This document shows, one piece after another, positions 12,917 to 29,565 of a DNA stretch of 40,349 bases. A program made the translations under genes and the position numbers. Origin of the DNA: Sphingomicrobium sp. (GTDB taxonomy: Bacteria; Pseudomonadota; Alphaproteobacteria; Sphingomonadales; Sphingomonadaceae); the NCBI GenBank assembly GCA_030447545.1, contig JAUJOV010000020.1, positions 1-40,349 of the forward strand, written 5' to 3'. The stretch's first letter is position 1. Every line of letters begins with the position of its first letter. The notes below the pieces were generated by a model. It made no database searches and was not told where the DNA came from. It saw only the letters and a program-made list of their open reading frames with translations.

Positions 12917-13705
12917 ATGGTGGATCCCGCGCTTGTCGCTTTCGCTTCGAGGCTTGCCGACGTCGCGCGCGTGGAGACGCTGGGGCGCGCATCCGCAATC
13001 GGGGCTGTCGAAAACAAAAGCCTCTGCGACCTGTTCGACCCGGTCACCGAGGCGGACCGCGAGGCCGAGCGGGTGATGCGCGAGCTGATCGAGCGGCAGC
13101 ATCCGGATCATGGCGTTGCCGGCGAGGAATTCGAAGACCGGCAGGCAAGCGGTCCGTTCACCTGGAGCCTCGACCCGATCGACGGCACCCGTTCCTACAT
13201 GTGCGGGCTTCCGACCTGGGTCACGCTGATCGGGCTTCTGGAGCAGCAGCAGCCGATACTCGGAGTGATCGATGTCCCGCGTCTGGGCGAACGATATTCG
13301 GGCGACGGCAGCAGCGCCTGGCTCGAGAGCGGCGGCAAGAGGCAGCCGCTCGGCACGAGCAACTGCACGCAGCTTTCGGCGGCGCGGCTGTCGGCGACCG
13401 ATCCGTTTCTCTTCAGCGGCGAGACCTGGGACGCGTTCGAGGCTCTGCGCACCTCGGTACGCACCACACGCTATGGCCACGACGGCTATGCCTATGCGCG
13501 GCTCGCTGCAGGCACGCTCGACCTGGTGGTCGAGTGCGGCCTCAAGCCGCACGATTAAGTTGCGCTGATTGCCGTCGTGCGCGGCGCCGGAGGCGTGTTT
13601 GGCGACTGGTCCGCCGGTACCGATTTCGCCGCGGGGCAGGTGATCGCCGCCGCTACCCGCGAGCTCTATGATGCGGCGGTCGAGGTCATGGGTCCGGCGC
13701 GCTAG
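12917..13705 (+). pseudogene. hisN: Histidinol-phosphate phosphatase (HisN type), interrupted by in-frame TAA
   Basis: An inositol-monophosphatase-fold phosphatase that would remove phosphate from histidinol phosphate. It has GEEF (about residue 71), the metal site SLDPIDGTRSYM and GLKPHD, whose Asp is the last metal ligand. Directly after that Asp comes TAA (13556-13558). The frame then continues perfectly with VALIAVVRGAGGVFGDW and ends at TAG 13703-13705, exactly the C-terminus expected of the family. The codon at the TAA is usually an aromatic residue, so TAT/TAC to TAA explains it. The shorter product would lack 49 residues of the core sheet. The start is uncertain (ATG 12908 or 12917). 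The 3' end overlaps convergent hisIE by 20 bases. Confidence 0.85.
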
Positions 13706-14336
13706 TTTCGTGGCGGCGGCGAAGCACATCCACGACCTCGTCCCAGCTCAGCCCGCGCGCCTCGAGCAACACGGCAAGGTGATAGAGCAGGTCCGCGGCT
13801 TCTTCGGCGCAGCCGGCAGAATCGCGAGTCACCGCGGCCAGCGCGAGCTCGACGCCCTCTTCGCCGAGCTTCTGCGCGATCCGCTCCGGCCCGCCTTCGA
13901 GAAGGCGACGGGTGTAACTGGACTCGTCGCCTGACGCCGCGCGCTCGGCAACGACCGCCGACAGCTCGGCGAGCCAGCCGGGGCCGCCGAGCCAGGCGTC
14001 GCCGAAGCAGCTGCGCGTGCCCTCGTGGCAGGTCGGCCCTTGCGGATTGGCAAGCACGAGCAGCGCGTCGCCGTCGCAGTCGGTGGTCACCGCGTGCACC
14101 TTCAGCACGTTGCCGCTGGTCTCGCCCTTGCACCACAGGCGCTGCTTCGATCGGCTGAAGAAGGTCGCGAAGCCGCTTTGGAGGGTCGCGTCGAGGGCTT
14201 CGCGATCCATGTAGCCGAGCATCAGCACGCGGCCCGAGCGGCGGTCCTGGACGACTGCCGGCAGAAGCCCGTCCATCTTGCCCCATGCGAGGCCGGCGAT
14301 TTCCGTCGCGGTCAGCGGCGCATTTCGATCCCGCAT
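13686..14336 (-). CDS. hisI: Bifunctional phosphoribosyl-AMP cyclohydrolase / phosphoribosyl-ATP diphosphatase
   Basis: 216 residues joining two histidine-pathway enzymes (HisIE), steps 3 and 2. The cyclohydrolase part (about 1-115) has [28 protein letters not shown] and the zinc/magnesium motifs [10 protein letters not shown] and CHEGTRSCF. The diphosphatase part (about 120-205) has [20 protein letters not shown] and [13 protein letters not shown]. The fused form is typical of gammaproteobacteria and Bacteroidetes; alphaproteobacteria usually keep hisI and hisE separate. The start overlaps the hisF end by 25 bases. Last gene of the his operon. Confidence 0.95.
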
Positions 14337-15076
14337 CGGGCGAGAAACTCCTTGAGCTCGGGGATGGGGATGATTCGGTCGTGGAACACGGTCGCGGCAA
14401 GCGCGCCGCTTGCACCCGCATCGAACGCCTCGCGGAAATGGCGGGGTTCGCCGGCTCCTCCGGAAGCGATCACGGGCACGCTCACCGCGTCGATCACGTG
14501 TGCAGTGTGAGCGATGTCGTAGCCGGTGCGAAGGCCGTCGCGGCGCATGCAGTTGAGCACGATCTCCCCGGCGCCGCGGCTGCACGCCTCGCGCAGCCAG
14601 TCGAGCGTGCGGCGCCGCGTGTCGCGAGTCGTCGAGGGGTCGCCGGTATATTGCTTCACGCGATAGTCGCCGCCGTCCTCGAAGCTGTCCACTCCGAGCA
14701 CCACGCATTGCGCGCCGAAGTCGCGCGCGAGCTCGTCGATCAACTCGGGCCTTTCGAGCGCGGGTGAGTTGACCGACACCTTGTCGGCGCCGGCGTCGAG
14801 GCACGCGGCGGCCGAATCGCGAGTGCGGATTCCGCCCGCGACGGCGAATGGGATGTCGATCACCTCGGCGATGCGCCGCACCCATGAGAGGTCGAGGCTG
14901 CGGCCCTCGGCGCTCGCCGAAATGTCGTAGAAGACGAGCTCGTCGGCGCCTTCGTCGCGATAGCGCATCGCCTGTTCGACGATGTCGCCGGCGTCGCGGT
15001 GGTCGCGGAACTGCACGCCTTTGACGACTCGCCCGTCCTTGACGTCGAGGCAGGGGATGATCCTACGCGCGGGCAA
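14312..15076 (-). CDS. hisF: Imidazole glycerol phosphate synthase, cyclase subunit HisF
   Basis: 254 residues, a (beta/alpha)8 barrel that with HisH makes IGP and AICAR from PRFAR. The catalytic Asp in [17 protein letters not shown] and the second Asp in [13 protein letters not shown] are present, as are both phosphate sites ([16 protein letters not shown]). Segments such as [20 protein letters not shown] and [11 protein letters not shown] belong to the enterobacterial/xanthomonad HisF type rather than the usual alphaproteobacterial one. The start is TTG with GAGGAGG nine bases upstream, overlapping the hisA end by 14 bases. Confidence 0.96.
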
Positions 15077-15782
15077 GGTCGAGCGCCTCCTCGAGCAGCA
15101 CGCGGCCTTCCCACAGCGCCTTGCCGACGATCGCGCCGGCAGTCCGCAGCCGCTTCAGGTCGGCGAGCGAAGAGACGCCGCCGGACGCTTGCACAGCCAT
15201 GTGCGGCAGACGCTCCACGGCGTGTTCGAGCAGCTCGAAATTGGGGCCGGCAAGCTCGCCGTCGCGGCCGATGTCGGTCAGCAGCAGGTGGCGCGCGTCC
15301 GGGAACTGGCACGCCACATCCCACAAAGTCAGCCCCGTATTCTCCGTCCAGCCGGAAATCGCGACCTGCGGCTCCCCGCCGATCATGCGAACGTCGAGCG
15401 CCAGCGTGATCCGTTCGGCGCCAAACTCGGCGATCCAACCGCGCACCAGCTCCGGCTGGCGCACCGCGACGCTTCCGACCACCACGCGGGCGACACCCGC
15501 GCGCCGCAAGCTTTCGACATGCTCGCGCGAACGGACGCCGCCGCCTACCTGCAGGCGCAGCGCCGCGGCGGCCGCGAGGCGCGCAATCAGCTCGTGCTGC
15601 ACCGGTTCGCGCGCGCGGGCGCCGTCCAGGTCGACGACATGCGCCCATTGTGCACCCGCCGCGGCGAACTCCCGAAGCGCGCTTTGCGGGTCGGCCGAAT
15701 AGGTCGTCGACTCCTCGAAGCGGCCCTGGCGAAGGCGCACGACCTGCCCGCCCATCAGGTCCATCGCGGGATAGACGATCAT
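15063..15782 (-). CDS. hisA: ProFAR isomerase HisA
   Basis: 239 residues; isomerises ProFAR to [25 protein letters not shown] holds the first catalytic Asp. LQVGGGVRS and [12 protein letters not shown] form a phosphate site, and [12 protein letters not shown] holds the second catalytic Asp. The overall sequence follows the gammaproteobacterial pattern. The ATG overlaps the hisH stop as ATGA. Confidence 0.95.
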
Positions 15783-16357
15783 GCAAGGAAGCTCTGAAGG
15801 AAGCGCGCGCCTGCCGCGCCGGAGCGCTCCGGGTGGAACTGCGCGCCGATCCAGTTGCCGTGCCGGACGACGGCCGGAACCGGGCGTCCGTACTCGCTTG
15901 CCGCAACCGTCGCCGGGCCGTCGTCGCACGCATAGCTGTGCGCGAAATAGAGATAGTCGCCGTCTTCGATGCCGCCGCCGGGCTCGCGGACCTCGACGCG
16001 GCTCCAGCCCATGTGCGGCACCGGCCGATGGGGCTCAGGTCTCAGCGCGCGAACTTCGCCTGGAATGATGCCGAGGCACTCGGCGTCCGCCTCCTCGCTT
16101 CGCTCGAACAGCAGCTGCATGCCGAGGCAAATGCCGAGCGCCGGCTGCTCGAGCGAAGTCAGCGGCCCGCGCAAGGCAAGCGCGTCGACTCGCTCCATCG
16201 CGTAGCCGGCTGCGCCGACGCCGGGCAGGATGACCTTGTCGGCCGCCCCAATCTCGTGCGCGTCAGCGCTCAGCACCGGCTCGATTGCGAACCGCCGAAA
16301 GGCGAGCCGCACCGAACCGATGTTGCCATAGCCAAGGTCGACGATCACCAGCTTCAC
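15779..16357 (-). CDS. hisH: Imidazole glycerol phosphate synthase, glutaminase subunit HisH
   Basis: 192 residues, class-I glutamine amidotransferase that supplies ammonia to HisF. The oxyanion loop is ILPGVGAAGYAM. The nucleophile Cys lies in LGICLGMQLLFERSEE, and the His-x-Glu pair in AQFHPERSG. GTG start overlaps the stop of hisCB (GTGA). Resembles the xanthomonad-type subunit. Confidence 0.95.
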   Translation of the reverse strand: MKLVIVDLGYGNIGSVRLAFRRFAIEPVLSADAHEIGAADKVILPGVGAAGYAMERVDALALRGPLTSLEQPALGICLGMQLLFERSEEADAECLGIIPGEVRALRPEPHRPVPHMGWSRVEVREPGGGIEDGDYLYFAHSYACDDGPATVAASEYGRPVPAVVRHGNWIGAQFHPERSGAAGARFLQSFLA

Positions 16358-18018
16358 AGAACGCCCTTGGTGCTCGGTAGCTGGTCGGCGTCGCCCTCGC
16401 GGCGCACCGCCTGGCGGAGCGCTCGCCCGAAGGCCTTGAAGCAGGCCTCGGTCTTGTGGTGGTCGTTCTCGCCCTCGACGCGCACGTGGATCGCAGCGCC
16501 CATGCTGTCGGCCAGCGAGCGGAACACGTGGCGAGTCATTTCGGTCGGATAGGCGCCGATGTGGCTCGCTTCGAACGCGCCTTCGAAGCGGCTGAACGGA
16601 CGTCCCGACAGGTCGATCAGCACCTGCGCCTGCGCCTCGTCCATCGGCAGGGCAAAGCCGAATCGGCCGATGCCGCGCCGCTCGCCGAGCGCGCGCGACA
16701 AGGCGGAGCCGAGCGCGATCGCGCAATCCTCGACGCTGTGATGGGCATCGATGTCGAGGTCGCCGTCGCAGGTCAGCGTAAGGCTGAACCCGCCGTGTGC
16801 GGCGACCTGGTCGAGCATGTGGTCGTAGAAAGGCACGCCGGTTTCGATGCGCCGCGGGGCGGCCCGGTCGAGGTCCACGGCGACGGCGATCTTCGTCTCC
16901 TTGGTGTCGCGCACCAGCTCGGCGCGGCGCACCGGGGCGGCCGCGGCGGGAACGCCAAAGGCCGCAAGCACAGCTGCATTCTCGGCCTCGGTACCGACTG
17001 TGATCCGGATTCCACCGGGCGCGGCATTCGGCCGGAAGCGCACGCGGATCCCCAGCGCGTGCAGCTTCTGCGCAAGCGCATGCGGCTCTTCCACCTCGAG
17101 GAACAGGAAGTTGCCGCCGCCGGAGCGGGCCGACCGGACGATCGGCGAGCTTGCGAGCAGCGGCGCGAGGCGCTCGCGCTCGGCGATGGTGCGCGCGATC
17201 CGATCCTCGTGGATCCCGCGGCGCGATGGGGCGAGCGCCGCCATCGCCGCTTCGATCGACAGGCTCGGAAGCGGGTAGGGGGGCAGCGCCCGCGCGGCGA
17301 TCGCGATCAGCTCGGGATTGCCGATCGCACAGCCGACGCGCGCGCCCGCCAAGCCGAAAGCCTTCGACAGGGTTTTGAGCACCACCACGTTGGGGCGCTT
17401 GGCTGCTTCGGCGGCGAGGCTCGGCATGGACGAGAAATCGAGATAGGCCTCGTCGAGCACGATGAGCGTGTCCGCCAGCGCGTCGGCGACTTCAAGCACC
17501 TGGCTGGGCGCGACCTCGTTGCCGGTCGGGTTGTTGGGCGAGCAGATGAAGGCGAGCTTGAGGCCCGGCACGTCGCCCAGCGCAGCGACATAGGTCTCGG
17601 CGTCGAAGTCGAAGCCGGCGCCGAGCGGCACCTCGACGACGCGCGCGCCCTGCAGCTTGGCGAAATGCGCATAAGCCGAGAAGGTCGGCGCCGGAACCGC
17701 GACGGCATCCTCGCCGGGCCTGCAGAAGGCGCGCACCAGCACGTCGATCGCATCGTCCGCACCGCGCGTGACGACGAGGCTTTCGCGATCGACTCCGTAC
17801 AGCGCCGCAAGCGCGCGAGTCAGCCGCTCGGGCTGCGGCTCGGGATAGCGGTTGAGGCCAGCGACGAGCGGCCCGTCGGACAGCGGCGGATACGGGTTCT
17901 CGTTGGCGTCCAGCTTGATCGCGTCCGGGCCGAAGGCGGCGTTCGCCTGGGCGGCGATGTCGAACGGCTCGAGCGCGAGGATCTCCGGGCGCGCGAGGCG
18001 CTGCGCAAGCGATTCCAT
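16354..18018 (-). CDS. hisC: HisC-HisB fusion: histidinol-phosphate aminotransferase + imidazoleglycerol-phosphate dehydratase
   Basis: One uninterrupted 554-residue frame. Residues 1-355 are a complete HisC, a PLP aminotransferase. DANENPYPPL, CSPNNPTGNEV, VLDEAYLDF and the PLP lysine Lys219 in TLSKAFGLAGARVG are present. Residues 363-554 are a complete HisB dehydratase: VRDTKETKI, HHSVED at 426-431, GENDHH at 516-521 and the C-terminal STKGVL. The linker is only a few alanines (PAAAAP). A GTG at 16932 sits where a free HisB would start but has no ribosome site and no stop before it. HisB is normally fused, if at all, to a histidinol phosphatase. ATG shares one base with the hisD stop (TGATG). 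Confidence 0.93.
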   Translation of the reverse strand: MESLAQRLARPEILALEPFDIAAQANAAFGPDAIKLDANENPYPPLSDGPLVAGLNRYPEPQPERLTRALAALYGVDRESLVVTRGADDAIDVLVRAFCRPGEDAVAVPAPTFSAYAHFAKLQGARVVEVPLGAGFDFDAETYVAALGDVPGLKLAFICSPNNPTGNEVAPSQVLEVADALADTLIVLDEAYLDFSSMPSLAAEAAKRPNVVVLKTLSKAFGLAGARVGCAIGNPELIAIAARALPPYPLPSLSIEAAMAALAPSRRGIHEDRIARTIAERERLAPLLASSPIVRSARSGGGNFLFLEVEEPHALAQKLHALGIRVRFRPNAAPGGIRITVGTEAENAAVLAAFGVPAAAAPVRRAELVRDTKETKIAVAVDLDRAAPRRIETGVPFYDHMLDQVAAHGGFSLTLTCDGDLDIDAHHSVEDCAIALGSALSRALGERRGIGRFGFALPMDEAQAQVLIDLSGRPFSRFEGAFEASHIGAYPTEMTRHVFRSLADSMGAAIHVRVEGENDHHKTEACFKAFGRALRQAVRREGDADQLPSTKGVL

Positions 18019-19310
18019 CAGGCGCACTCCAGCCGCGCGTCGGCAGCCAAGGCGTGCGCCTCGAGCGCTTCCATCCGCGCGAGCAAAGCGGCAGGCCGAG
18101 CGATCTGCCGCGCGGCTTCGGCTGTGACCGACTGCACGCTCATCGCCTTGAGGAAGGTATGGACGCCGACGCCGCTCCACGCGCGCGCGGCGCCGTCGGT
18201 CGGAAGCACGTGGCTCGAACCCGCAAGATAGTCTCCGAACGTTTCGGCTGCGGCTGCGCCGGCGAAAACCGCGCCGGCATTGCGCACCTGCGGAATGAGC
18301 GCGTCGGCGTCGGCAACGGCAAGCGACAGATGCTCGGGCGCGTAGAGGTTCGCGACTTCAATCGCCTGGCCGAGGTCTTCAGTGAGGATCACCCGCGACT
18401 GCTCAAGCGAAGCGCGCGCGATGTCCGCCCGAGGTAGTGTCTTCACGCGAGCCTCGACCTCAGCCGTTGCACGCTCCGCCAGCCGTTTCGAGGGCGTGAC
18501 CAGAAGCACCTGCGCCGCCGAGTCGTGCTCGGCCTGGCTCAGCAGGTCCGCAGCGACACGCGCCGGGACGGCATGATCAACGGCGATGACCATAATCTCG
18601 CTCGCGCCCGCAGGCATGTCGATCGCGGGTCCGCCGGCCATGCTCGACACCAGCCGCTTCGCCTCCGCGACCCAGGCGTTTCCGGGGCCGCAGATCTTGT
18701 CCACCCTTGAGATCGGGCCTGCGCCGAAGGCGAGCGCCGCGACGGCCTGGGCGCCGCCGACGGTCCAGATCGATTCGATGCCGCACAGCTCGGCAGCAAG
18801 CGCGATGACCGGCGACAGGCTGCCGTCGCCGCGGGGCGGCGTGACCGTCACGATCTCGCGGACCCCCGCAGCGCGGGCGGGGATGGCGAGCATCAGGAGG
18901 GTCGAGAACAGGGGGGTCGCGCCGCCGGGCACGTAGAGGCCGATACGATCGATCGGCCGCCAGACCTTGCGCACAAGCAGGCCCGGCGCGGTCTCCACCG
19001 CGACATCCTGAGGCCTGCTCGCCTGGTGAAACGCCTCGATGTTGCGGGCGGCAAGCTCGATCGCCGCAAGCTGCTCCGGCGCGAGGGTCCGGCGAGCCTC
19101 CGCCGCGACGGGCGCGACCTCAACCAGCCGCGGCTCGGCGCCGTCGATCCGCTGCGCCGCCGAGCACAGGCCGTCCCAGCCGCGCTCGCGCACGGCGGCG
19201 ACGGTCGCGGCGACGGCCTCCTGGAGACGAGCGTCACTTCTCTGCTCGGGCCGGGCGAGCGCATTGCTTCGTCCGCGCTCATCGAGCGCATTCCACTGGT
19301 ACAGCCTCAC
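18018..19310 (-). CDS. hisD: Histidinol dehydrogenase
   Basis: 430 residues; performs the last two oxidations to histidine with NAD and zinc. Signature segments: RIGLYVPGGATPLFSTLLM, TVGGAQAVAALAFG, DKICGPGNAWVAEAKRLV, the catalytic region SQAEHDSAAQ and YAPEHLSL, and SSHVLPTDGAARAWSG. GTG start overlaps the hisG stop as GTGA. Length is normal (about 430). Confidence 0.96.
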   Translation of the reverse strand: MRLYQWNALDERGRSNALARPEQRSDARLQEAVAATVAAVRERGWDGLCSAAQRIDGAEPRLVEVAPVAAEARRTLAPEQLAAIELAARNIEAFHQASRPQDVAVETAPGLLVRKVWRPIDRIGLYVPGGATPLFSTLLMLAIPARAAGVREIVTVTPPRGDGSLSPVIALAAELCGIESIWTVGGAQAVAALAFGAGPISRVDKICGPGNAWVAEAKRLVSSMAGGPAIDMPAGASEIMVIAVDHAVPARVAADLLSQAEHDSAAQVLLVTPSKRLAERATAEVEARVKTLPRADIARASLEQSRVILTEDLGQAIEVANLYAPEHLSLAVADADALIPQVRNAGAVFAGAAAAETFGDYLAGSSHVLPTDGAARAWSGVGVHTFLKAMSVQSVTAEAARQIARPAALLARMEALEAHALAADARLECA

Positions 19311-20197
19311 ATCATCATCTTTTCGATTGGAACGACGAGGATCGCCGAAGCGCCTGCGCCCTTGAGCTTCTGCAGCGTCTCCCAGAACACCGATTCCTGG
19401 CAGACGGCGTGGACCGCGAAATGGCCGGGCCGGCCGTGCAGCGGGACAATCGTCGGTGCTTCAGCCCCGGGCAGGATCGCGGTGATCTGCTCGAGCGACT
19501 CTTCGGTGGCGTTGAGCATGATATATTTCGATTCCTTGGTCGCGAGCACGCCATCGACGCGGCTCAGCAGCCCGGCCGCGATCTCCGCCCGCTTCTGGTC
19601 GAGCGGCTTGCGCGTGCGGATCAGCACTGCCTGGCTGTCGAGCACCGTCTCGACCGGACGGAGGCCATTGGCCTCGAGCGTTGCTCCGGTCGACACGAGG
19701 TCGCAGATGAAATTGGCGATCTGAAGCCGCGGCGCGAGCTCGACCGCGCCGTTCATCTTGACGACGGTCGCGTCGATGCCCTGGTCGGCCAGGTAGCGGG
19801 CGGTGATCCGCGGGTAGGAGGTCGCGATGCGCGCGCCGGCGAGCGAGCGCGGACCGTCGAAGGCAAGGCTTTCCGGCGCTGCGAGCTTCAGGCTGCAGCG
19901 GCCGAAGCCCAGCTCCGCAAGCACCTCGTAGCGCTGCTCGTTTTCGCCGAGCGCGAATTCCTCGAGCACGTTCTCGCCGACAATGCCGAACTCGCACACG
20001 CCGTCGCTGACGAAGGTCGGAATGTCGTCGTCGCGCACGAACATCAGCTCGGCCGGGAAATTTTCCACCCGCGCCGTCAGGCTGTTCTTGCTCGACTGGA
20101 TGCGAAAGCCCGCGTCGCGCAGCAGCTCGCGGCTGAGGTCGGACAGGCGGCCGGATTTTTGAAGCGCGATGTGGAGGCGCGATCGGTCAGCGAGCAT
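19307..20197 (-). CDS. hisG: ATP phosphoribosyltransferase, long form with C-terminal regulatory domain
   Basis: 296 residues; catalyses the committed step, PRPP + ATP to PR-ATP. The catalytic domain has SDGVCEFGIVGENVLEE, and the PRPP loop lies around FICDLVSTGATLEANGL. From about residue 225 the ACT-like domain that binds histidine for feedback inhibition follows (TIVPLHGRPGHFAVHAV). This long form works without HisZ; many alphaproteobacteria use the short form plus HisZ. Starts 11 bases inside the trpR-like gene. Confidence 0.96.
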   Translation of the reverse strand: MLADRSRLHIALQKSGRLSDLSRELLRDAGFRIQSSKNSLTARVENFPAELMFVRDDDIPTFVSDGVCEFGIVGENVLEEFALGENEQRYEVLAELGFGRCSLKLAAPESLAFDGPRSLAGARIATSYPRITARYLADQGIDATVVKMNGAVELAPRLQIANFICDLVSTGATLEANGLRPVETVLDSQAVLIRTRKPLDQKRAEIAAGLLSRVDGVLATKESKYIMLNATEESLEQITAILPGAEAPTIVPLHGRPGHFAVHAVCQESVFWETLQKLKGAGASAILVVPIEKMMM

Positions 20198-20519
20198 CGC
20201 GAGCCCTCAGCGCGTCGATCGCGCGGCGATAGCCCTGGTGCGGCTCGTGACGAAGGAAGCGGCCGACCCGGACGATCGTGGTGGTGCTCACGCCCGTTGC
20301 ATCGTGGATGTCGCGATAAGGCATGCTGGTCTCGTCGAGCAGGCGTGCGACGTGCCAGCGCTCGGACAAGGTGCGCAGCTCCGCCGGAGTGCACAGGTCG
20401 CGAAGCAGCTGCCGCATGTCCTCGCGGGTGCGCGGGGTCAGCAGCGCATCGCACAGATCGTCGAGCAGGAGCGCCGGATCGCGGGTGGGCGCGACCGGCA
20501 TCGGTTCGGTTTTGGTCAA
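20187..20519 (-). CDS. TrpR-like (YerC/YecD family) regulator heading the his operon
   Basis: 110 residues with a TrpR-superfamily helical fold: LCTPAELRTLSERWHVARLL, then the helix-turn-helix SMPYRDIHDATGVSTTTIVR. Genes of this family stand first in the his operons of Xanthomonadaceae and relatives, where they are believed to repress it. Start is TTG at 20519; an ATG six codons later (20501) is the alternative, and neither has a strong ribosome site. It probably controls the adjacent divergent spacer. Confidence 0.85.
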   Translation of the reverse strand: MTKTEPMPVAPTRDPALLLDDLCDALLTPRTREDMRQLLRDLCTPAELRTLSERWHVARLLDETSMPYRDIHDATGVSTTTIVRVGRFLRHEPHQGYRRAIDALRARDAR

Positions 20520-20536
20520 GGCTTTTGTTCCACCGT

Positions 20537-20606: not shown

Positions 20607-21986
20607 TTGATTTCCCGCGGTTACGGCTCGATTGGCCCGCCGGTGCCAGACGATCCGCAACTTCCGGCTGCAGCGGCCGCTCCGCTTGCCCTGTCCGCCC
20701 AGCGCTCCGGGCCGATCAGGGGCGAGGCGGCTACGCCCAGCGACAAGTCCATGTCGCACCGAGCGCTGATTTTGGGCGCAATGGCGCAGGGCGAGACTCA
20801 GGTCAGCGGCCTGCTTGAAAGCGCCGACGTGCTTCGCACCGCCGCCGCGATCGAGGCATTCGGCGCTGGCGTGACCCGCACCGCTGCGGGGAGCTGGACG
20901 GTGCGCGGGGGCGAGTGGCGCTCGCCGGCCGAGCCGATCGACTGCGGCAATGCCGGCACTGCGGCGCGCCTCCTGATGGGAGCTGCATCGGGGTTCGAGC
21001 TGGCGGCGACTTTCACAGGGGACGAGTCGCTGCGCCGCCGGCCGATGGCGCGGGTGATCGAGCCATTGAGGCAGATGGGTGCGCGGATCGACGGCGGTCC
21101 GCTGCTGCCCCTCACGATCGTCGGCGGTGCGCTGCGGGGGATCGACTATGTCAGCCCGCACGCTTCGGCGCAGGTGAAGTCGGCGGTGCTGCTCGCAGGG
21201 TTGAGGGCCAGCGGCCCGGTCGAGGTGATCGAGCCTGCGCGCTCGCGCGATCACACCGAGCGGATGCTCGGCGTGTTCGGCGTCCAGGTCGAGGCGGAGC
21301 AGTGCGCAGGCGGCTGGCGCGTGCGGCTGCCGAGCGACAGGCGATTGCGCGCCGCGCGGCTCGCAGTCGCAGGCGATCCTTCGTCCGCAGCCTTTCCGCT
21401 GGTCGCCGCTTTGCTGGTGCCCGGCTCGCAGGTGAATCTCTCCAGCGTCCTTGCGAACCCGCTTCGCACCGGCCTGTTCGACGTGCTGCGCGCGATGGGC
21501 GCCGACCTCTGCTCGACCAACCCGCGCGAGCGTGGCGGCGAGCCGGTAGCTGACCTGACGGCTCGGTCGAGCAGCCTGTCGGGCGTCGAGGTCGAGGCCG
21601 CGGCTGCCCCGAGCATGATCGACGAATATCCGATCCTTGCCGTCGCCGCGGCCTGCGCGTCGGGCACGACGATCATGCACGGGCTCGCCGAGCTTCGAGT
21701 GAAGGAGAGCGACCGGCTTGCCGCGATCGTCGCGGGCCTGCACAGGTGCGGCGTGAATGCGCAGATGCAGGGCGACAGCTTGATCGTGCACGGCTGCGGT
21801 GGCCCTCCTCTTGGCGGCGCGTCGGTCCAGACCGATGGCGACCACCGCATCGCCATGGCGTTCCTCGTGCTCGGCCTTGCCGCCCAGCGGCCGGTGGAGG
21901 TCGACGAGGCCGGAATGATCGACACGAGCTTTCCGGACTTCGCTGCCCTGATGCGCGGCCTCGGCGCGGCAATCGAGCCGGCATGA
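20607..21986 (+). CDS. aroA: 3-phosphoshikimate 1-carboxyvinyltransferase (EPSP synthase)
   Basis: 459 residues from TTG behind GGAAAGG. The enzyme joins PEP to shikimate-3-phosphate. [18 protein letters not shown] is the substrate-binding N-terminal motif. [12 protein letters not shown] and the [17 protein letters not shown] segment follow. The catalytic [14 protein letters not shown] and [13 protein letters not shown] complete it. The first 35 residues are poorly conserved, so a start at GTG 20643 is possible. First gene of the plus-strand aro operon, divergent from the his operon. The TTG overlaps the stop of a 9-codon frame beginning at ATG 20581. Confidence 0.95.
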
Positions 21987-23062
21987 GCGTCAACAGCTTA
22001 GGACGGCTGCTGCGCGTCACGACATGGGGCGAGAGCCACGGGCCGGCGATCGGAGCGGTGGTGGACGGCTGCCCCCCCGGGCTCGCGCTCAGCGAGGCCG
22101 ACATCCAGCCCTGGCTCGACCGCCGCCGCCCGGGCCAGTCGCGCCACACGACCCAGCGCCGCGAGCCCGACGCGGTGCGCATCCTCTCCGGCACCTTCGA
22201 AGGCAAAACGACCGGCACTCCGATTTCGCTGATGATCGAAAATGTCGATGCTCGATCCAAGGATTACGCCGGCATCGCCGGAGCTTATCGGCCCGGGCAT
22301 GCCGATCTCGTCTATGATGCCAAGTACGGCGTGCGCGACTGGCGCGGCGGCGGGCGCAGCTCGGCGCGCGAGACTGCTGCGCGGGTCGCCGCCGGGGCGA
22401 TCGCCCGGCTGGTGGTTCCGGACGTTCGGATCAGTGGGTATGTGGTGGAGCTTGGCGGGGATGCCATCGACCGCGCCGGGTTCGATCCGGCGGCGATCGA
22501 CGCGAACCCCTTCTTCTGCCCGGATCCCGCTGCGGCCGAGCGGTGGGAGCGGCTGCTCGACGCTGCGCGCAAGGACGGCAATTCGCTCGGCGCGGTCGTC
22601 GAGTGCGTTGCGAGCGGAGTGCCGGCGGGCTGGGGAGCGCCGGTTTACGGAAAGCTCGACGCCGATCTCGCCGCCGCAATGGTGTCGATCAACGCGGTCA
22701 AGGGCGTGGAGATCGGCGACGGCTTCGCAGCGGCGCGGGCAAGCGGGCGCGAGAATGCCGACGAGATGCGCCAGGGCGCCGACGGCCGGCCGCGCTTCCT
22801 CGCGAACCACAGCGGCGGCGTGATCGGCGGCATCGCCACCGGGCAGGACGTGATCGTCCGGGTCGCGTTCAAGCCGACATCTTCGATCTCCTCTCCGCTC
22901 GCGACCGTCGAGCGCGAAGGCAGCGAGACGGAGATCCGCACCACCGGGCGCCACGACCCCTGCGTCGCCATCCGCGGAGCCCCGGTGGTCGAGGCGATGA
23001 TGGCGCTGGTCCTTGCCGACCAGGCGCTGCTGCACCGCGCCCAGTGCGGGGAGCGGCGGTGA
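21983..23062 (+). CDS. aroC: Chorismate synthase
   Basis: 359 residues; converts EPSP to chorismate using reduced FMN. Starts [21 protein letters not shown], with [23 protein letters not shown] and [13 protein letters not shown], all signature motifs. The second active-site histidine lies in [14 protein letters not shown] overlaps the aroA stop (ATGA). Length normal. Confidence 0.97.
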
Positions 23063-24153
23063 CCCGTATCGACGTCGCGCTGGGCGAGCGCAGCTATCCC
23101 GTGCTGGTCGAGCAAGGCCTGCTCGGGCAGGCCGGGGAGCTGCTAGCGCCTTATGCGCGCGGCGGCCGGATCGCGGTCGTAAGCGACCAGAACGTCTGGT
23201 CGCTGCACGGGCCGGCGCTGGAGCGAGGCCTTCGCCGAAGCGGCATTTCTGCAGTGCCGATCCTCGTTCCGACTGGAGAGGAGGCCAAGACCTGGACGAT
23301 CGCGGCGGCGGTAAGCGAGCAGCTCCTGTCGCTCGAGCTTGGGCGCGACGATCATGTGGCGGCGTTCGGGGGCGGCGCGGTCGGCGATCTTGCTGGGTTC
23401 GTCGCGGCGATCCTCAAGCGCGGCTGCGGCTATATCCAGCTGCCGACCACTCTGCTCGCACAGGTCGACAGCTCGGTCGGCGGCAAGACGGCGATCAACA
23501 GTGCGGCCGGCAAGAATCTGATCGGCGCGTTCCACCAGCCAAGGCTGGTGCTGGTCGACCCCTGCGTGCTCGACACTCTGCCGCCGCGCGAGCTTCGCGC
23601 GGGCTATGCCGAGGTGGTGAAGTACGGGCTTATCGGCGATCGCGACTTCTTCGACTGGCTCGAGCACAGCGGCGCTGCCATGCTTGGCGGCGAGCCCGCC
23701 GCGCGGCTGCACGCGATTGCCACGAGCATCGCCGCCAAGGTCCGGGTGGTCGCCGAGGACGAGCGCGAGACGTCGGGCCGGCGAGCGCTTCTCAACCTTG
23801 GCCACACGTTCGGCCACGCGCTCGAGGCGGAGGCCGGCTTTTCGGACCGGCTGCTCCACGGCGAGGCGGTTGCGGTCGGGATGGTGCTCGCCTTTGCCTT
23901 TTCCGCCGAGCGGGGGCTGTGCCCCGCCGAGCATGCCGAGCGGGTGCGGGCGCATCTCGAGGCGGTGGGGCTGCCGACCAGCTTCGAGGCGGACCCGGCA
24001 GCGCTGGTGCGCCACATCCGGCAGGACAAGAAAGCGTCGGCGGGACGCGTGCCGTTCATCCTGGCCCGCGCGATCGGCGAAGCCATCGTTGCCCACGACG
24101 TCGAGCTTGACGAGGTCGAAGCCTTTCTGTCGCGTCAGCTCCAGCTCGCATGA
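23059..24153 (+). CDS. aroB: 3-dehydroquinate synthase
   Basis: 364 residues; NAD- and zinc-dependent cyclisation of DAHP. NAD site: [34 protein letters not shown] is the signature. The zinc ligands lie in [24 protein letters not shown] and [13 protein letters not shown] start overlaps the aroC stop (GTGA). Confidence 0.97.
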
Positions 24154-24962
24154 TCCCTTGGGCAGAGGTGATCGGCGATCCGATCGCCCATTCGCTGTCG
24201 CCTTCGATCCACCGCTTCTGGCTCGAGACGCTGGGCATTGCCGGCCGCTATGAAGCAACCCAGGTGCGCGCGCCTGATCTTGGCTCCTTCCTCTCGCAAA
24301 GGCGCGCGGACGTGGCGTGGCGGGGCTGCAATGTGACTGCGCCGCACAAGGAACGCCTCGCCGGGCTGGTGGACCAGCTCGACGACGCGGCCGTGGCCGT
24401 GGGCGCGGTCAATTGCGTCCATCGCACCGGCGGCGAGCTGTCCGGCACCAACACCGACGTCGAGGGCGTGTCGCAAGCGCTGCACGGCCTGGCGCTGCGC
24501 GGCGCCAAGGTTGCGATCATCGGCGGCGGCGGCGGCGCGCGGGCTGCGCTTCACTACCTGCGGCAGCCGGGGGCCGGGGAGGTCCGGCTCGTCCTGCGCG
24601 ATCCCGAAAAGGCCCTGCTGCTCGACTCGCCCGCCGTACCGGTAGCGGAGGCGGGCCGCGCCTTCCGCTCCGCGGCGCTGATCGTCAACGCAACTCCGCT
24701 CGGCCTGGCGGGCGGCGAGCCGATGCCGGACGAGCTGCTTGCGCAAGTGCGCGAGGCGGGCGCGGCGGCCGCATTCGACATGGTCTACAGGCCGCTCGAG
24801 ACTCCGTTCCTCACTGCCGCAAGGGAAGGCGGCGCTCGCACTATCGACGGCCTCGGCATGCTGATCGGCCAGGCGCGCCGCGCGTTCAGCCTGTTCTTCG
24901 GCGCCCAGCCGCCGGCCGGGACGGACGGCGAGCTGCGGCGACGGCTCGCCGCGGATCAGTGA
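24150..24962 (+). CDS. aroE: Shikimate dehydrogenase
   Basis: 270 residues; reduces 3-dehydroshikimate with NADPH. The N-terminus [18 protein letters not shown] binds shikimate. Catalytic Lys in [13 protein letters not shown], and Asp in [13 protein letters not shown] loop [12 protein letters not shown], and C-terminal [16 protein letters not shown] overlaps the aroB stop (ATGA). It is the last gene before the internal leader/terminator region. Confidence 0.95.
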
Positions 24963-25162: not shown

Positions 25163-25190
25163 GCCCGCCCCACCGGCGGGCTTTTTCTTT
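25163..25190 (+). terminator. Attenuator terminator before aroG-trpEG
   Basis: GCCCGCC (25163-25169), loop CCACC, GGCGGGC (25175-25181), then TTTTTCTTT. A perfect 7-bp GC stem with U-run, 40 bases before the aroG ATG. It would end both leader transcripts and readthrough from aroACBE unless overridden. The Trp-codon stretch (GGTGG at about 25080-25084) is complementary to the loop CCACC, so alternative pairings are possible. Confidence 0.88.
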
Positions 25191-25221
25191 GCCTTTCCAT
25201 CCGATCCAGAAAGCCCATTCG

Positions 25222-26241
25222 ATGATCATCGTCCTCAAGCCCGGAACGCCGCCGCACGTCACTCAGGAGCTGCTCGACCGAATCGCCGAAAGCGGGCTGA
25301 AGCCGCTCCATCTTCCCGGGGCGGAGCGGGTCGTGCTCGGCGCGCTCGGCGACGAGCGGGTGCTTGCCGACCTGCAGCTCGACGGCCACCCGATGGTCGA
25401 ATCGGTCAAGCCGATCCTCGCGCCTTACAAGCTCGTCAGCCGCGAGGCGCAGCCGGAGGATTCGGTCGTGCGCATCGGCAATGCGGCGATCGGTGGCGGG
25501 GCGTTCGCGGTAATCGCGGGGCCGTGCGCAGTGGAGAGCTACGAACAGACGCTGGCAAGCGCCCGGGCAGCGAAGGACGCGGGCGCTTCGGCGATCCGCG
25601 CGGGCGCGTTCAAGCCGCGCACCAGCCCCTACGACTTTCGCGGCCATGGCGCCGAGGCGCTGCAGATCCTTCGCTCGGTCGGCGACGAGCTCGGGCTGCC
25701 TGTGGTCACCGAAGTGATGGATGCATCCGATCTCGACCTCGTCGTCGAGAAGGCGGACGCGCTCCAGGTCGGCGCGCGCAACATGCAGAACTTCACCCTG
25801 CTCCGAGCGATCGGCCAGACTCGCAAGCCCGTGCTCCTGAAGCGAGGCATGTCGGCGAAGATCGACGAGCTGCTGCTCGCTGCGGAATATCTGCTCGCGG
25901 GCGGCAACCGCGAGGTGGTGCTGGTCGAACGCGGCATCCGCACGTTCGAGACGGCGATGCGCAACACGCTCGACCTCAACGCGGTGCCCTACATCAAGCA
26001 GCGGACCCACCTGCCGGTGGTGGTCGATCCTTCGCACGGCACGGGCATCCGCGACCTGGTGACGCCGATGGCGCTTGCGGCCGCGGCGTGCGGCGCGGAT
26101 GGGCTGCTGATCGAGGTTCACGAGAACCCGGCGGTGGCCTTGTCGGACGGAGCGCAGTCGCTCTACCCGGATCAGTTCGCGCAGCTGATGGCGCAGCTTC
26201 GGCCCGTCGTGTCGGCGGTAGGGCGACAGCTGGCGTGCTGA
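25222..26241 (+). CDS. aroG: DAHP synthase, type I-beta with N-terminal regulatory domain
   Basis: 339 residues; joins PEP and erythrose-4-phosphate, the entry to the shikimate pathway. Residues 1-70 form a ferredoxin/ACT-like domain (MIIVLKPGTPPHVTQELLDR), the feedback-sensing module of the Thermotoga-type enzyme. The barrel follows with FAVIAGPCAVESYEQTL, GAFKPRTSPYDFRGHG, LLKRGMSAKIDELL and VVVDPSHGTGIRD. Chosen ATG is 25222 because conservation begins there. It lies behind the trp attenuator, so aromatic input and anthranilate synthesis share tryptophan control. Many alphaproteobacteria use the unrelated type II enzyme instead. The symbol is functional, not orthology-based. Confidence 0.93.
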   Translation: MIIVLKPGTPPHVTQELLDRIAESGLKPLHLPGAERVVLGALGDERVLADLQLDGHPMVESVKPILAPYKLVSREAQPEDSVVRIGNAAIGGGAFAVIAGPCAVESYEQTLASARAAKDAGASAIRAGAFKPRTSPYDFRGHGAEALQILRSVGDELGLPVVTEVMDASDLDLVVEKADALQVGARNMQNFTLLRAIGQTRKPVLLKRGMSAKIDELLLAAEYLLAGGNREVVLVERGIRTFETAMRNTLDLNAVPYIKQRTHLPVVVDPSHGTGIRDLVTPMALAAAACGADGLLIEVHENPAVALSDGAQSLYPDQFAQLMAQLRPVVSAVGRQLAC

Positions 26242-27716
26242 AACCCCACGCGCTGGTGCGCGAGCTCGCCCTTCGAACGGACCCGCTGGCGCTCTACGTG
26301 CACCTGACCGGCGGCCGGGTCGACACGATGCTGTTCGAGCGGCCCGTCGCGACGACCCTGCTGCTCGTCGAGGCCGCCGTTCGGATCGAGTGCCGGGGGC
26401 AGGAAGTGAGCGTCACTGCGCTGGACTCGGAAGGGCCGGCGGTTGTTGCCGCGCTGGCCGAAGCAATGCCCGCGCAACTGGTGAGCCGGGACGAGGGAAG
26501 CGCGCGCTTTGCCTATGCTCGGATCGACGCGACCGACCCGCAGGAGCGACTCATGGCTGCTTCGCCGTTCGACGTGCTCCGGATGATTTGCGACAGCGCG
26601 GCGTCGGCCGAACCGTTCGCCGCTGCGGCGCTCGGCGTGGTCGCGTTCGATCATGTCGACCTGCTCGAGGACCTGCCCGCGAACCTTGCCGATCCGCTCG
26701 GCTTTCCGGACTTCGTCTTCTGTGTGCCGCAAGCGCTGATCGCGATCGAGCCCGACGGGCGCGCGCGCGCCATCTGCACGATGTTCGGCAATGCAGTCGG
26801 GGCGGCCGCGCGCCTCGAGACACTGGTCGAGCGCTGCTCGGCCGTGCCGCCGCTGGATGAGCCCGGGCGTGCGGGCGAGGCGGCATTCGACAGCGCAGAC
26901 CTCAGCGACGAGGCTTATGCCGATGTGGTGCGGGCGATGAAGGCGCATATCGGCGCAGGCGACGTCTACCAGATCGTGCCGTCGCGCACCTTTCGCGCGC
27001 CGTGCCCCGACGCGCTCGCCGCGTTCGCAGCGCAGCGCGCCGCGGACCCGAGCCCGTACCAGTTCTATGTGTCGGCAGCCGATCATGTGCTGTTCGGCTG
27101 CTCTCCGGAAACTTCGGTGCGGGTCGGCGCCGAACGCGAGATCGAGGTGAAGCCCATCGCGGGGACGCGGCCGCGCGGGACGACCATCGACGAGGACGAC
27201 CGGCTCGAGGCGGAGCTTCGGCTCGACGAAAAGGAAGTCGCCGAGCATATGATGCTGGTCGATCTCGCTCGCAACGATGTCGCGCGGGTGAGCGAGCCGG
27301 GCACGCGGAGGGTCGCAAGGCTGCTCGGCGTCGAGCGCTATGCGCGCGTGATGCATCTCGTGTCCTCGGTGACCGGCGTTCTCAAGCAGGGGTTCGGTCC
27401 CGTGCACGCGCTCCAGGCGTGCCTCAACGTGGGCACGATTTCGGGCGCTCCGAAGCTTCGCGCGACGCAGCTGCTTCGATCGGCCGAAGCGACCAAGCGC
27501 GGTCCGTACGGCGGCGCGGTCGGATGGCTGAACGGCGCCGGAGAGATGGACACCGGCGTCGTCATCCGTTCGGCCGTGGTGCAGGCCGGGGTCGCCTTCG
27601 TCCGCGCGGGGGCGGGCGTGGTCCACGACAGCGATCCCGCAGCGGAAGCCGACGAAACCAGGCGCAAGGCATCGGCCCTCCTGTCGGTGCTCGCCGGGCA
27701 GGTCGCCGATGCCTAG
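26235..27716 (+). CDS. trpE: Anthranilate synthase component I
   Basis: 493 residues from GTG, overlapping the aroG stop by seven bases. It turns chorismate into anthranilate with ammonia from TrpG. The N-terminal domain holds the Trp feedback site (LFERP, in place of the usual LLES). Catalytic domain: VYQIVPSRTFRAP, IAGTRPRGTTIDED, HMMLVDLARNDVARV, VMHLVSSVTG, GTISGAPKLRA and GPYGGAVGWL. The closest pattern is the enterobacterial TrpE, not the fused TrpEG or the usual alphaproteobacterial TrpE. Confidence 0.95.
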   Translation: MLKPHALVRELALRTDPLALYVHLTGGRVDTMLFERPVATTLLLVEAAVRIECRGQEVSVTALDSEGPAVVAALAEAMPAQLVSRDEGSARFAYARIDATDPQERLMAASPFDVLRMICDSAASAEPFAAAALGVVAFDHVDLLEDLPANLADPLGFPDFVFCVPQALIAIEPDGRARAICTMFGNAVGAAARLETLVERCSAVPPLDEPGRAGEAAFDSADLSDEAYADVVRAMKAHIGAGDVYQIVPSRTFRAPCPDALAAFAAQRAADPSPYQFYVSAADHVLFGCSPETSVRVGAEREIEVKPIAGTRPRGTTIDEDDRLEAELRLDEKEVAEHMMLVDLARNDVARVSEPGTRRVARLLGVERYARVMHLVSSVTGVLKQGFGPVHALQACLNVGTISGAPKLRATQLLRSAEATKRGPYGGAVGWLNGAGEMDTGVVIRSAVVQAGVAFVRAGAGVVHDSDPAAEADETRRKASALLSVLAGQVADA

Positions 27717-28287
27717 GAACGTCGTGCTCCTCGACAATCTCGACTCGTTCAGCTTCAACCTCGTCGAGGCGTTCGAGCGCCACGGCGCTCAAGTGCGGGT
27801 GGTGCGCAACACGGCTGCGGCTTGCGACGTCGCCGCCTTGGCCGCCGGTCTCGACGCGACCATCCTGCTTTCACCCGGCCCCGGCACTCCGCGCGAGGCC
27901 GGCTGCCTGATGGAGCTGGTGGCGCTCGCCAGGGGACGGCTGCCGGTGATCGGCGTCTGCCTGGGCCACCAGGCGATGGTCGAGGAAGCGGGCGGCCGGG
28001 TGACTCGGGCGCCGGAGCCGGTGCATGGCAAGGCGTGGCGGGTGACTCACAACGGGACCGGCGCGTTCGCCGGGCTGCCCGACCCGCTGATCGTCGGGCG
28101 CTATCACAGCCTCACGACCACCGACGTGCCGGAGCGCTTCACGATCGACGCGCGGAGCGAAGGCGACGAGCTGGTGATGGCGATCAGCGACAGCGAAGCC
28201 CGGCAGACGGGGGTGCAGTTTCATCCCGAATCGATCCTGACGCCGCGGGGCGACCGGATCATCGCCAACCTGCTCGGTCTCGCGTGA
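27709..28287 (+). CDS. trpG: Anthranilate synthase glutaminase component
   Basis: 192 residues; releases ammonia from glutamine for TrpE. LLDNLDSFSFNLVEAF start, LLSPGPGTPREAGC oxyanion loop, nucleophile Cys in GVCLGHQAMVEEAGG, HGKAWRVTHNGTG, and His-x-Glu in GVQFHPESILT. It overlaps the trpE end by eight bases. Reads like the glutaminase half of enterobacterial TrpGD, here without the phosphoribosyltransferase part. Confidence 0.95.
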   Translation: MPRNVVLLDNLDSFSFNLVEAFERHGAQVRVVRNTAAACDVAALAAGLDATILLSPGPGTPREAGCLMELVALARGRLPVIGVCLGHQAMVEEAGGRVTRAPEPVHGKAWRVTHNGTGAFAGLPDPLIVGRYHSLTTTDVPERFTIDARSEGDELVMAISDSEARQTGVQFHPESILTPRGDRIIANLLGLA

Positions 28288-28817
28288 CGCTCGCTCGCCA
28301 CCTGTGCCTCGTGGGGCTCCCCGGAGCGGGCAAGTCGACTGTCGGCAGAGCGCTTGCCGAGCGGCTCGGGTGCGCATTCGCGGACAGCGACGAGGAGGTG
28401 GAGAGGGAGGCGGGAGCGAGCATTGCCGACATCTTCGAGCGCCTGGGCGAAGCGGAGTTCAGGAGGCTCGAACGAGCGGCGATCATGCGGCTTCTTCAGC
28501 GTTCGCCGCTGGTGATCGCGCTGGGCGGCGGCGCGTTCGACGATCCTTCCACGCGGGGGACGCTCCTTGCCAGCGCCGTCGTCGCCTGGCTCGATGTCCC
28601 CCAGGATGTGATCGTCGAGCGCTTATCTGCTGATGGTGTTCGGCCGTTGTTCGACGGGCATGAGGTCGCACTGCGCCTCGCCGAGCTCGCAGCGAAGCGC
28701 CTGCCTCATTACCGGCAGGCTCAGCTGCACATCGAGGCAGCGACCTCGGCCGCGATGACCGAAGCCATCGTCTCGGCGCTTCAGAGCGACATCGCCGCCC
28801 GCAGCGCCAGGCGGTAG
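28284..28817 (+). CDS. aroK: Shikimate kinase
   Basis: 177 residues; phosphorylates shikimate. Walker A VGLPGAGKSTVGRAL, shikimate-binding DSDEEVEREAG and FRRLER, and the GGGAF loop are present. The lid RPLF is near residue 120. GTG start overlaps the trpG stop (GTGA). Its 3' end overlaps the convergent aroQ end by 37 bases. Last gene of the plus-strand aro/trp operon. Confidence 0.94.
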   Translation: MTLARHLCLVGLPGAGKSTVGRALAERLGCAFADSDEEVEREAGASIADIFERLGEAEFRRLERAAIMRLLQRSPLVIALGGGAFDDPSTRGTLLASAVVAWLDVPQDVIVERLSADGVRPLFDGHEVALRLAELAAKRLPHYRQAQLHIEAATSAAMTEAIVSALQSDIAARSARR

Positions 28818-29215
28818 GACAAGGAGCCGAAGCCGCCGAGGGTCCCACGCGCGGCGGCAGCGACCAGGTCGCGACGGCGGAAGCTTTCGCGAGCCGCCGT
28901 GTTCGACAGATGCACCGCGATCACGGGCACGCTGATTCCGCGGATCATGTCGTGGAGCGCGACCGACGTGTGGGACAAGCCGCCGGCATTGAGGATGACG
29001 GCCCGGGCTTTCGCCGCGTCGGCTTCGCACAGCCAGTCGAGCAGCACGCCCTCGTGATTCGTCTGCCGCGCGACGAGCTCGACGTCATGCACGTCGCTGG
29101 CCTCCTGGCGAAGGCCCTCGATGATGGCGTCGAGCGTCTCGGTGCCGTAGACATGCGGTTCGCGCTGGCCGAGCAGGTTGAGGCCGGGCCCGTTGAGTAT
29201 CCAGATGGCAGCCAT
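28781..29215 (-). CDS. aroQ: Type II 3-dehydroquinate dehydratase
   Basis: 144 residues; dehydrates 3-dehydroquinate. Catalytic Arg18 and Tyr23 are in GQREPHVYG. The substrate-binding SHTSVAL, then VHLSN with RESFRRRDL, match the family. Odd: the usual GPNLN motif reads GPGLN, so the conserved active-site Asn is Gly11. The codon is GGC, two changes from AAC, which argues against a simple read error. Start at ATG 29215 matches family length; an upstream GTG at 29251 adds 12 residues. It follows the chorismate mutase gene by 56 bases on the same strand. It supplies the only dehydratase step in the cluster. Confidence 0.9.
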   Translation of the reverse strand: MAAIWILNGPGLNLLGQREPHVYGTETLDAIIEGLRQEASDVHDVELVARQTNHEGVLLDWLCEADAAKARAVILNAGGLSHTSVALHDMIRGISVPVIAVHLSNTAARESFRRRDLVAAAARGTLGGFGSLSYRLALRAAMSL

Positions 29216-29271
29216 GATCTGACCGTTAGGCCGGGGGCTCGCAAAACGCACCTGCCATTTGAGGCCGCTTG

Positions 29272-29565
29272 TCAGCGTGCGTCGAAACGGGCGTACTCGT
29301 AGGCGATCGATCGCTCGACGAGCATTTCATAGAGGTCTCGGATCAGCTCTTCGGGGACTCCGGCTCTTCTGGCCGTGGCCACGGCATTGGCGATGACCGC
29401 CGCCTTGCGCGCTTCGTCGCGAACCTCGCCTCTATGCTGCTTGATCCGCGCCGCCGCATCCATGAAGCGCATGCGCCTGGCGAGCAGCGCGACGATCTGC
29501 TCGTCCAGCGAGTCGACTCCGTGGCGCACCTCGGCCATCGATCGGCAGTCTTCGGGTTCGACCAT
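29272..29565 (-). CDS. Chorismate mutase (AroQ class)
   Basis: 97 residues, an all-helical mutase turning chorismate into prephenate for phenylalanine and tyrosine. Helix 1 SLDEQIVALLARRMRFMDAA, with KQHRGEVRDEARKAAVI carrying the conserved Arg/Lys/Asp residues, and C-terminal helix DLYEMLVERSIAYEY. No fused prephenate dehydratase or dehydrogenase. It is expressed with aroQ, convergent to aroK, giving the locus the other branch from chorismate. Confidence 0.92.
   Translation of the reverse strand: MVEPEDCRSMAEVRHGVDSLDEQIVALLARRMRFMDAAARIKQHRGEVRDEARKAAVIANAVATARRAGVPEELIRDLYEMLVERSIAYEYARFDAR

Follow-up and report, generated by a model that had tools for sequence, protein, structure and literature searches.

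A divergent histidine and shikimate gene cluster in a Sphingomicrobium draft genome, and graded states of its parts among relatives

A 40,349-nt contig of a Sphingomicrobium sp. (Alphaproteobacteria, Sphingomonadaceae; assembly GCA_030447545.1, contig JAUJOV010000020.1; this whole stretch is called the window below) carries nearly all genes of histidine (his) biosynthesis next to genes for all seven steps of the shikimate (aro) pathway and for the entry into tryptophan biosynthesis. We moderately favour the reading that this is a prototrophy locus built in successive steps, for the most part from the family's own genes. A hisR-led his operon of enterobacterial gene order would have come to adjoin an aroA-aroC-aroB-aroE block and an aroF-trpE-trpG block, in a direction of steps that we infer. 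In the species of the window these would also have been joined by aroK, aroQ and a chorismate-mutase-family gene, so that the seven chorismate steps and the tryptophan entry now stand beside the his pathway. The arrangement is unusual; each of its parts is of a known kind, and no new mechanism is involved. It has long been disputed whether operons arise through the gradual gathering of genes in place or through the spread of clusters that are already complete, and the genus with its relatives shows scattered, half-built, nearly complete and apparently lost states among close species, an unusually full set of intermediates that lets models of operon formation be tested.

Gene content of the two arms

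The window corresponds to contig C15 in a draft bin (2.32 Mb, 99 contigs, 70.5% complete, 4.1% contaminated). Genes were called from NCBIfam and Pfam profile matches against curated cut-offs; gene starts were chosen by us, and several are approximate. The genes of both arms and the spacer between them are as follows.

12917..13558, plus strand, hisN, histidinol-phosphatase of the inositol monophosphatase type, interrupted by an in-frame TAA (TIGR02067, below cut-off)
13686..14315, minus strand, hisIE (NF002747, 256 bits, above cut-off; start approximate)
14312..15076, minus strand, hisF (TIGR00735, 318 bits, above cut-off)
15063..15785, minus strand, hisA (TIGR00007, 227.5 bits, below cut-off 228.95; start approximate)
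15779..16357, minus strand, hisH (TIGR01855, 183 bits, above cut-off)
16354..18018, minus strand, hisC-hisB as a single open frame, aminotransferase plus imidazoleglycerol-phosphate dehydratase (hisC and IGPD models, each above a cut-off; start chosen)
18018..19310, minus strand, hisD (TIGR00069, 447 bits, above cut-off)
19307..20197, minus strand, hisG, long form with C-terminal domain (TIGR00070 and TIGR03455, both above cut-off)
20187..20519, minus strand, hisR, TrpR-family regulator of the YerC/HisR type, upstream of hisG (PF01371, 72 bits; TIGR02531, 58.7 bits, cut-off 42.2; TrpR equivalog below cut-off)
20520..20606, 87-bp divergent spacer common to the his and aro arms
20607..21986, plus strand, aroA, 5-enolpyruvylshikimate-3-phosphate synthase (TIGR01356, 398 bits, above cut-off)
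21983..23062, plus strand, aroC, chorismate synthase (NF003793, 483 bits, above cut-off)
23062..24153, plus strand, aroB, 3-dehydroquinate synthase (TIGR01357, 355 bits, above cut-off; start approximate)
24150..24962, plus strand, aroE, shikimate dehydrogenase (TIGR00507, 183 bits, below cut-off 200)
25189..26241, plus strand, aroF, 3-deoxy-D-arabino-heptulosonate-7-phosphate (DAHP) synthase resembling that of Bacillus subtilis (NF006421, 464 bits, and TIGR01361, 376 bits, above cut-off)
26238..27716, plus strand, trpE, anthranilate synthase component I (NF010079, 499 bits, above cut-off; PF00425; start approximate)
27709..28287, plus strand, trpG/pabA-type amidotransferase (TIGR00566, 173 bits, above cut-off)
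28284..28817, plus strand, aroK, shikimate kinase (PF01202, 145 bits; NF010552, 163 bits, below cut-off 186)
28781..29251, minus strand, aroQ, type II 3-dehydroquinate dehydratase (NF003806, 177 bits, cut-off 171; TIGR01088, 153 bits, below cut-off 170)
29272..29565, minus strand, chorismate-mutase-family gene (PF01817, CM_2, 67.6 bits; best NCBIfam match PRK07075, isochorismate lyase, below cut-off)

From the spacer, hisR-hisG-hisD-hisCB-hisH-hisA-hisF-hisIE reads leftward, with hisG to hisIE at 13686-20197 on the minus strand, and aroA-aroC-aroB-aroE-aroF-trpE-trpG-aroK reads rightward at 20607-28817 on the plus strand, followed beyond aroK by aroQ and the chorismate-mutase-family gene (28781-29565, minus strand). 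No internal stop was found in any frame from hisG to hisIE, in any aro or trp frame or in that of the mutase-family gene. The right arm is packed as in an operon: with the chosen starts, neighbouring genes meet or share a few bases at aroA/aroC, aroC/aroB, aroB/aroE, aroF/trpE, trpE/trpG and trpG/aroK, and the aroE-aroF gap is about 230 bp.

The original prediction, made from the sequence alone, described two complete pathways diverging from an 87-bp spacer. It placed the spacer correctly, but the gene to its left is hisR, which it did not name, rather than hisG. The complete shikimate pathway is borne out by profiles for all seven steps, with aroE and aroK below equivalog cut-offs and clear by family; the gene read as aroG is a DAHP synthase of the aroF type. 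Both trpE and trpG were rightly named, while the chorismate mutase passes Pfam only and could be a relative of isochorismate lyase. A search for second copies within the 70%-complete bin, which had been proposed, gives single AroB and AroC genes and a second, broken his operon on contig C85 (G000:C85, L070), which has a HisG 78% identical to that of the window, ends at the contig edge and probably belongs to a co-binned congener.

For histidine, hisG, hisD, hisC-hisB, hisH, hisA, hisF and hisIE are confirmed as predicted, but hisN is interrupted as assembled. Because of an in-frame TAA at 13556-13558, after the codons for KPHD, the window has no intact gene for the histidinol-phosphatase step. 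The similarity to HisN does not end at the TAA: a match of 250.5 bits covers positions 3-251 of 252 with the stop inside it and reaches about 13690, and the downstream sequence resembles the tail of intact hisN genes of relatives. In a bin-wide HisN search nothing reaches the cut-off, the next matches having 149.6 and 110.1 bits, in addition to a partial one on C85. The stop is possibly a recent nonsense change, and possibly an assembly error, since the bin has a fragmented rpoB, the broken C85 operon, and actP and thiamine pyrophosphate (TPP) enzyme genes that are split.

The gene order of the his arm is of the enterobacterial type, hisGDCBHAFIE. A bifunctional hisNB with a phosphatase of the haloacid dehalogenase (HAD) type is absent, as HisCB covers only positions 166-355 of NF003937. 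The hisC-hisB frame, which in the window is open over 16354-18180, is shared by 32 of the 33 loci of this operon type in the window and relatives, the exception being the broken C85 copy; a literature search that included hisCB brought up no report of this fusion among the titles and abstract starts listed. HisG is matched in 226 of the 246 genomes of the order, and full-length relatives of the long form (at least 50% identity) are present in 18 other genomes, the other matches listed being mostly 37-45% identical over partial length. The long-HisG operon is patchily distributed in the order and may have come from outside it, its HisG being 52-53% identical to Escherichia coli and Salmonella records across 99% of its length.

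Rarity of the arrangement and graded states among relatives

None of the his loci of the 18 genomes with a long HisG (19 loci, up to 20 kb on each side, some ending at a contig edge) contains aroA, aroC, aroB or aroE, and aroF-trpE-trpG is near his in eight of these genomes. Among all his loci examined (these 19, 3 more including L111, and a further 12, several cut by contig ends), only L111, a contig of a Sphingomonadaceae metagenome-assembled genome (MAG), has aroA, aroC, aroB and aroE next to his, as the window has. Seen from aroC, in the best 80 of 463 named AroC loci, some of which end at contig edges, other aro genes of the window lie within 10 kb in only four: L111, L113, L114 and L142, the last three corresponding to genus members G291, G289 and G287. 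The comparison of the locus among relatives that had been suggested thus upholds the view of the arrangement as unusual. An ordinary ancestral locus was considered and rejected: across 12 other genera of the family, 13 genomes have an aroC with no other query gene near it, and the same holds for two genomes of family f2 (about 5 kb on each side, one f2 contig being shorter). Elsewhere, aroB is paired with aroK in 18 of 20 fetched AroB loci, including those of G208 and G190. No description of the arrangement was found among the titles and abstract starts listed in a literature search, mostly outside subscription journals.

The clustering is more than chance, because six neighbouring genes pairs in the right arm leave no gap between them and because an independent MAG contig, L111, has adjoining aro and his blocks. 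The same contig bears on the suspicion that the his-aro junction arose as an artefact of assembly, from two separate loci or from two strains binned together. The quality of the bin, 70% complete and 4% contaminated, with a broken second his operon on C85 and a broken rpoB, invites this suspicion, but in L111 too the aro genes run into hisR-hisG, and the spacer of the window keeps an operator-like site known upstream of hisR in relatives, which makes an artefact very unlikely.

Several intermediate states are observed. In five genus loci with a divergent, dispersed-type AroC, the aro genes are few: class II DAHP synthase-aroA-aroC with the aromatic hydroxylase gene phhA 3.6-4 kb farther (G208, G190, G235), DAHP synthase-aroA-aroC (G195), or aroA-aroC (G112), phhA being absent from the fetched stretch in the latter two. 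Most dispersed-type congeners (among L307-L326) have an AroC without about 20 or more residues near residues 161-185 of the AroC of the window, and some lack more.

In G261 (L200, L201), G307, G270 and G259 we observe a larger block, chorismate mutase/class II DAHP synthase-aroA-pheA-aroC-aroB-aroE-phhA (in G270 and G259 the DAHP synthase match is split in two; Pfam domains were checked on G261 proteins only). Here aroA and aroC are separated by pheA, for prephenate dehydratase, and aroE is followed by phhA, for an aromatic amino acid hydroxylase of the biopterin type, which suggests that these genomes may make tyrosine from phenylalanine. Smaller versions are found in G291 and G292 (aroA-pheA-aroC-aroB-phhA, with a partial DAHP synthase match and aroE unmatched) and in G289 (aroA-aroC-aroB). 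In L111, positions 3390-17067 read in one direction, up to the contig end, as chorismate mutase/DAHP synthase (class II)-aroA-pheA-aroC-aroB-aroE-phhA-aroF-trpE-trpG-hisR-hisG-hisD; this contig carries two kinds of DAHP synthase. Upstream neighbours are common to G261, G307, G270, G259, G291, G292 and L111.

In G287, also a MAG, aroQ, aroK, trpG-trpE-aroF and aroA-aroC-aroB-aroE are on one contig, the last block ending at the contig edge, and no HisG match was found in this 97%-complete genome. Full shikimate clustering is therefore observed on two draft contigs, of G287 and of the window, in differing layouts; that of the window, with seven shikimate steps plus his, is unlike those of its relatives.

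The distance between the two pathways also varies. The separation of hisG and aroA is 40.7 kb in G261 and 47.9 kb in both G307 and G259. Of the 36 genus genomes (own included) with a close AroF (identity at least 65%, one partial), 18 have aroF no more than 20 kb from hisG. About 14-15 kb upstream of aroC in G261, the flanks of the dispersed aroA-aroC site are joined and the pair is gone, which suggests a local move rather than an import.

Assembly in place and regain after loss

The pathways are often missing in the genus. AroB is present in 49 of the 71 genus genomes (own included) and in 41 of the 53 good ones, AroC in 48 and 41, and HisG in 49 and 38, respectively, leaving 22 genomes without AroB, 23 without AroC and 22 without HisG. 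All 22 AroB-lacking genomes are among the 23 lacking AroC, and the one AroB match in G300 is distant (35%). Among good genomes, five have HisG and neither AroB nor AroC (G260, G268, G269, G274, G301), seven have none of the three, and eight have AroB and AroC without HisG. G176, G264, G273, G277 and G278 (99% complete) have no HisG, AroB or AroC match and are predicted to be histidine and aromatic auxotrophs.

Piecewise and selfish-operon models are described in PMC10138114. The graded series supports the piecewise model, and the losses leave room for the selfish-operon one. Under the latter, the lineage of the window would have lost its shikimate genes and retaken a compact aro block from another sphingomonad, beside its his operon; we hold this regain to be a serious, though less likely, alternative. 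It would fit the absence of AroB and AroC from the six nearest HisG relatives of the window. The AroB of the window is nearest to that of L111 (65-66%), and its AroC is equally close (80%) to those of L111 and of L112, which is unclustered. A quick RpoB tree shows the clustered genomes spread among aro-minus and dispersed ones. In a careful AroC tree (54 of 76 extracted sequences, 13 dispersed and 9 named rows being left out; 28 of the 80 named loci were among those extracted; bootstrap unsettled), dispersed genes join G135/G173 of the neighbour genus g24, with the clustered ones outside (support 97/96), and a quick tree of all 76 gives the same grouping (support 92).

On the other side, approximately unbiased (AU) tests do not reject a single clade at the 0.05 level, both for clustered plus dispersed AroC (p-AU 0.0586) and for clustered against dispersed genomes in RpoB, with the window and G016 removed (p-AU 0.0698). 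The quick AroB tree points the opposite way from AroC, placing G135/G173 among the clustered genes (support 94); the block keeps its upstream neighbours in seven other genomes; and no mobility gene is present among the scanned open reading frames (ORFs) of the window. The gene-tree comparison suggested in the original prediction thus neither shows nor excludes transfer within the family. We hold assembly in place to be more likely than regain by transfer because the AU tests do not reject a single clade and because the split into clustered and dispersed types is identical in both aro genes.

A number of observations weigh against assembly in place. Nearness to the window was measured by HisG, since its rpoB, in 12 matched pieces and with a long branch in the RpoB tree, could not place its genome; the six nearest genomes by this measure (82-88%: G282, G274, G269, G268, G301, G260) lack AroB and AroC, and four of them are single contigs, 98-100% complete. 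The AroC and AroB trees conflict on the native gene set of the genus. The window and L111 are both draft MAGs, and L111, in which rpoB was not found, is placed to family only, which makes it no more than a candidate intermediate of the genus. Between the window and the home locus defined by the shared upstream neighbours there is no run of common flanks, just isolated matches of 34-44%, and G287 has none, so the move leading to the window is not reconstructed. The joined empty site occurs in G261 alone of the six loci compared, his and aro are about 750 kb apart in G270, and a scan of 20150-20750 detects no consensus sigma-70-like promoter in the spacer.

A composite reading, which we consider rather doubtful, sees here a living series of operon formation within one genus, in which shikimate, pheA/phhA, tryptophan-entry and his genes gather stepwise into a single supercluster while sister species lose the pathways. 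The window species would have regained aromatic prototrophy by taking up the complete block next to a his operon headed by hisR, with one TrpR-family repressor perhaps governing both. Under assembly in place, clustering would presumably be favoured since the pathways are often dispensable in the genus or since co-regulation pays.

Predicted regulation, flanking genes and similar systems

A hisR match is located immediately upstream of hisG, on the same strand, in the window and in the loci of 31 relatives (G246, a duplicate of L111, is not counted), and a palindromic operator is predicted upstream of hisR. A 20-bp matrix, seeded by a site picked by eye, was fitted on 30 upstream regions from these 31 loci (G295 was dropped at a contig end; the window and G246 were left out), yielding the consensus TGTTTTAACACGTTGTAACA. 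Two sites in the spacer match it.

20526..20545, minus strand, predicted HisR operator, top site in the window (25.5 bits; matrix from 30 relatives, window left out)
20534..20553, plus strand, second operator-like site, overlapping, 8 bp on (18.3 bits)

The next non-overlapping site in the 40-kb window has 5.3 bits. In the training loci (2,074,426 positions, both strands), 29 positions score at least 25.5, of which 25 are training sites and about four are others; five of the 30 training sites score 19-21. The overlapping sites, offset by 8 bp, are reminiscent of tandem TrpR operators. From the best site it is 6 bp to the hisR start and about 60-80 bp to aroA.

The two arms would form two divergent operons, making histidine (the phosphatase step being doubtful) and chorismate plus the tryptophan entry, respectively. 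By analogy with the protein tested in PMC9413887, HisR may sense histidine and repress the his arm; since the spacer is common to both, it could act on the aro arm as well. That paper reports hisR as the first gene of the his operon in most Proteobacteria having it, with the motif TGTAnTArnnnnyTnTTACA. The window resembles these operons in its leading TrpR-family hisR and its 20-bp palindromic operator; however, the alphaproteobacteria named there are Rhodobacterales and Caulobacterales, whereas the window belongs to Sphingomonadales and has an aro operon sharing the spacer.

The enterobacterial his operon, given as hisGDC(NB)HAF(IE) in PMC10138114, shares with the window the order G-D-C-B-H-A-F-IE and the long HisG. 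In contrast, the window has a HisB with no preceding HAD phosphatase, a fused hisC-hisB, a separate convergent hisN, and hisR ahead.

Other well-known clusters of aromatic genes are only partly similar. The aromatic supraoperon of B. subtilis holds aromatic genes with hisC in one cluster, while the divergent arms of the window carry almost the entire his pathway and every shikimate step. In Thermotoga and some archaea, complete aro clusters keep all or most shikimate genes together; in contrast, other members of the genus of the window have these genes dispersed, partly gathered or missing.

On the flanks of the cluster, the nameable genes are recJ, a TPP enzyme, a flavin mononucleotide (FMN) reductase, an AraC-type regulator, prfC, DUF485-actP, an esterase, an alcohol dehydrogenase, an enoyl-CoA hydratase, an acyl-CoA dehydrogenase and an AMP-binding enzyme (38751-40340). 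Two of them, actP (29969-31683) and the TPP-dependent enzyme (3209-5008), are each in two frames, as assembly errors or pseudogenes. The original prediction had proposed a transferable module or supply for a chorismate- or anthranilate-derived product. The former is unproven: the ORFs scanned, which are a part of those in the 40-kb window, include no integrase, transposase or plasmid gene, and the aro block keeps its upstream neighbours in the seven relatives. A search of 72,556 plasmid records gave at best 53% identity for HisG (an E. coli record) and 74.7% for AroC (a Sphingomonas record, 395 kb).

The latter finds no support. The presence in the cluster of trpE, trpG and the mutase-family gene, with isochorismate lyase as its best, below-cut-off NCBIfam match, and of the AMP-binding enzyme nearby could hint at a specialised product; yet the nameable flanking ORFs include no assembly-line or tailoring set, and AroB and AroC, single in the bin, look like primary-pathway enzymes, so that we judge this role highly improbable.

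G+C content is 0.67-0.71 in the cluster, 0.62-0.65 in most of the left flank (0.69 in the first 2 kb) and 0.65-0.69 in the right one; at third codon positions it is 0.79-0.88 in the cluster, 0.74-0.83 in five left genes and 0.84-0.91 in seven right genes. Nothing is drawn from base composition. An Rfam scan of the window identified tRNA only:

1145-1220, tRNA-Glu (Rfam)

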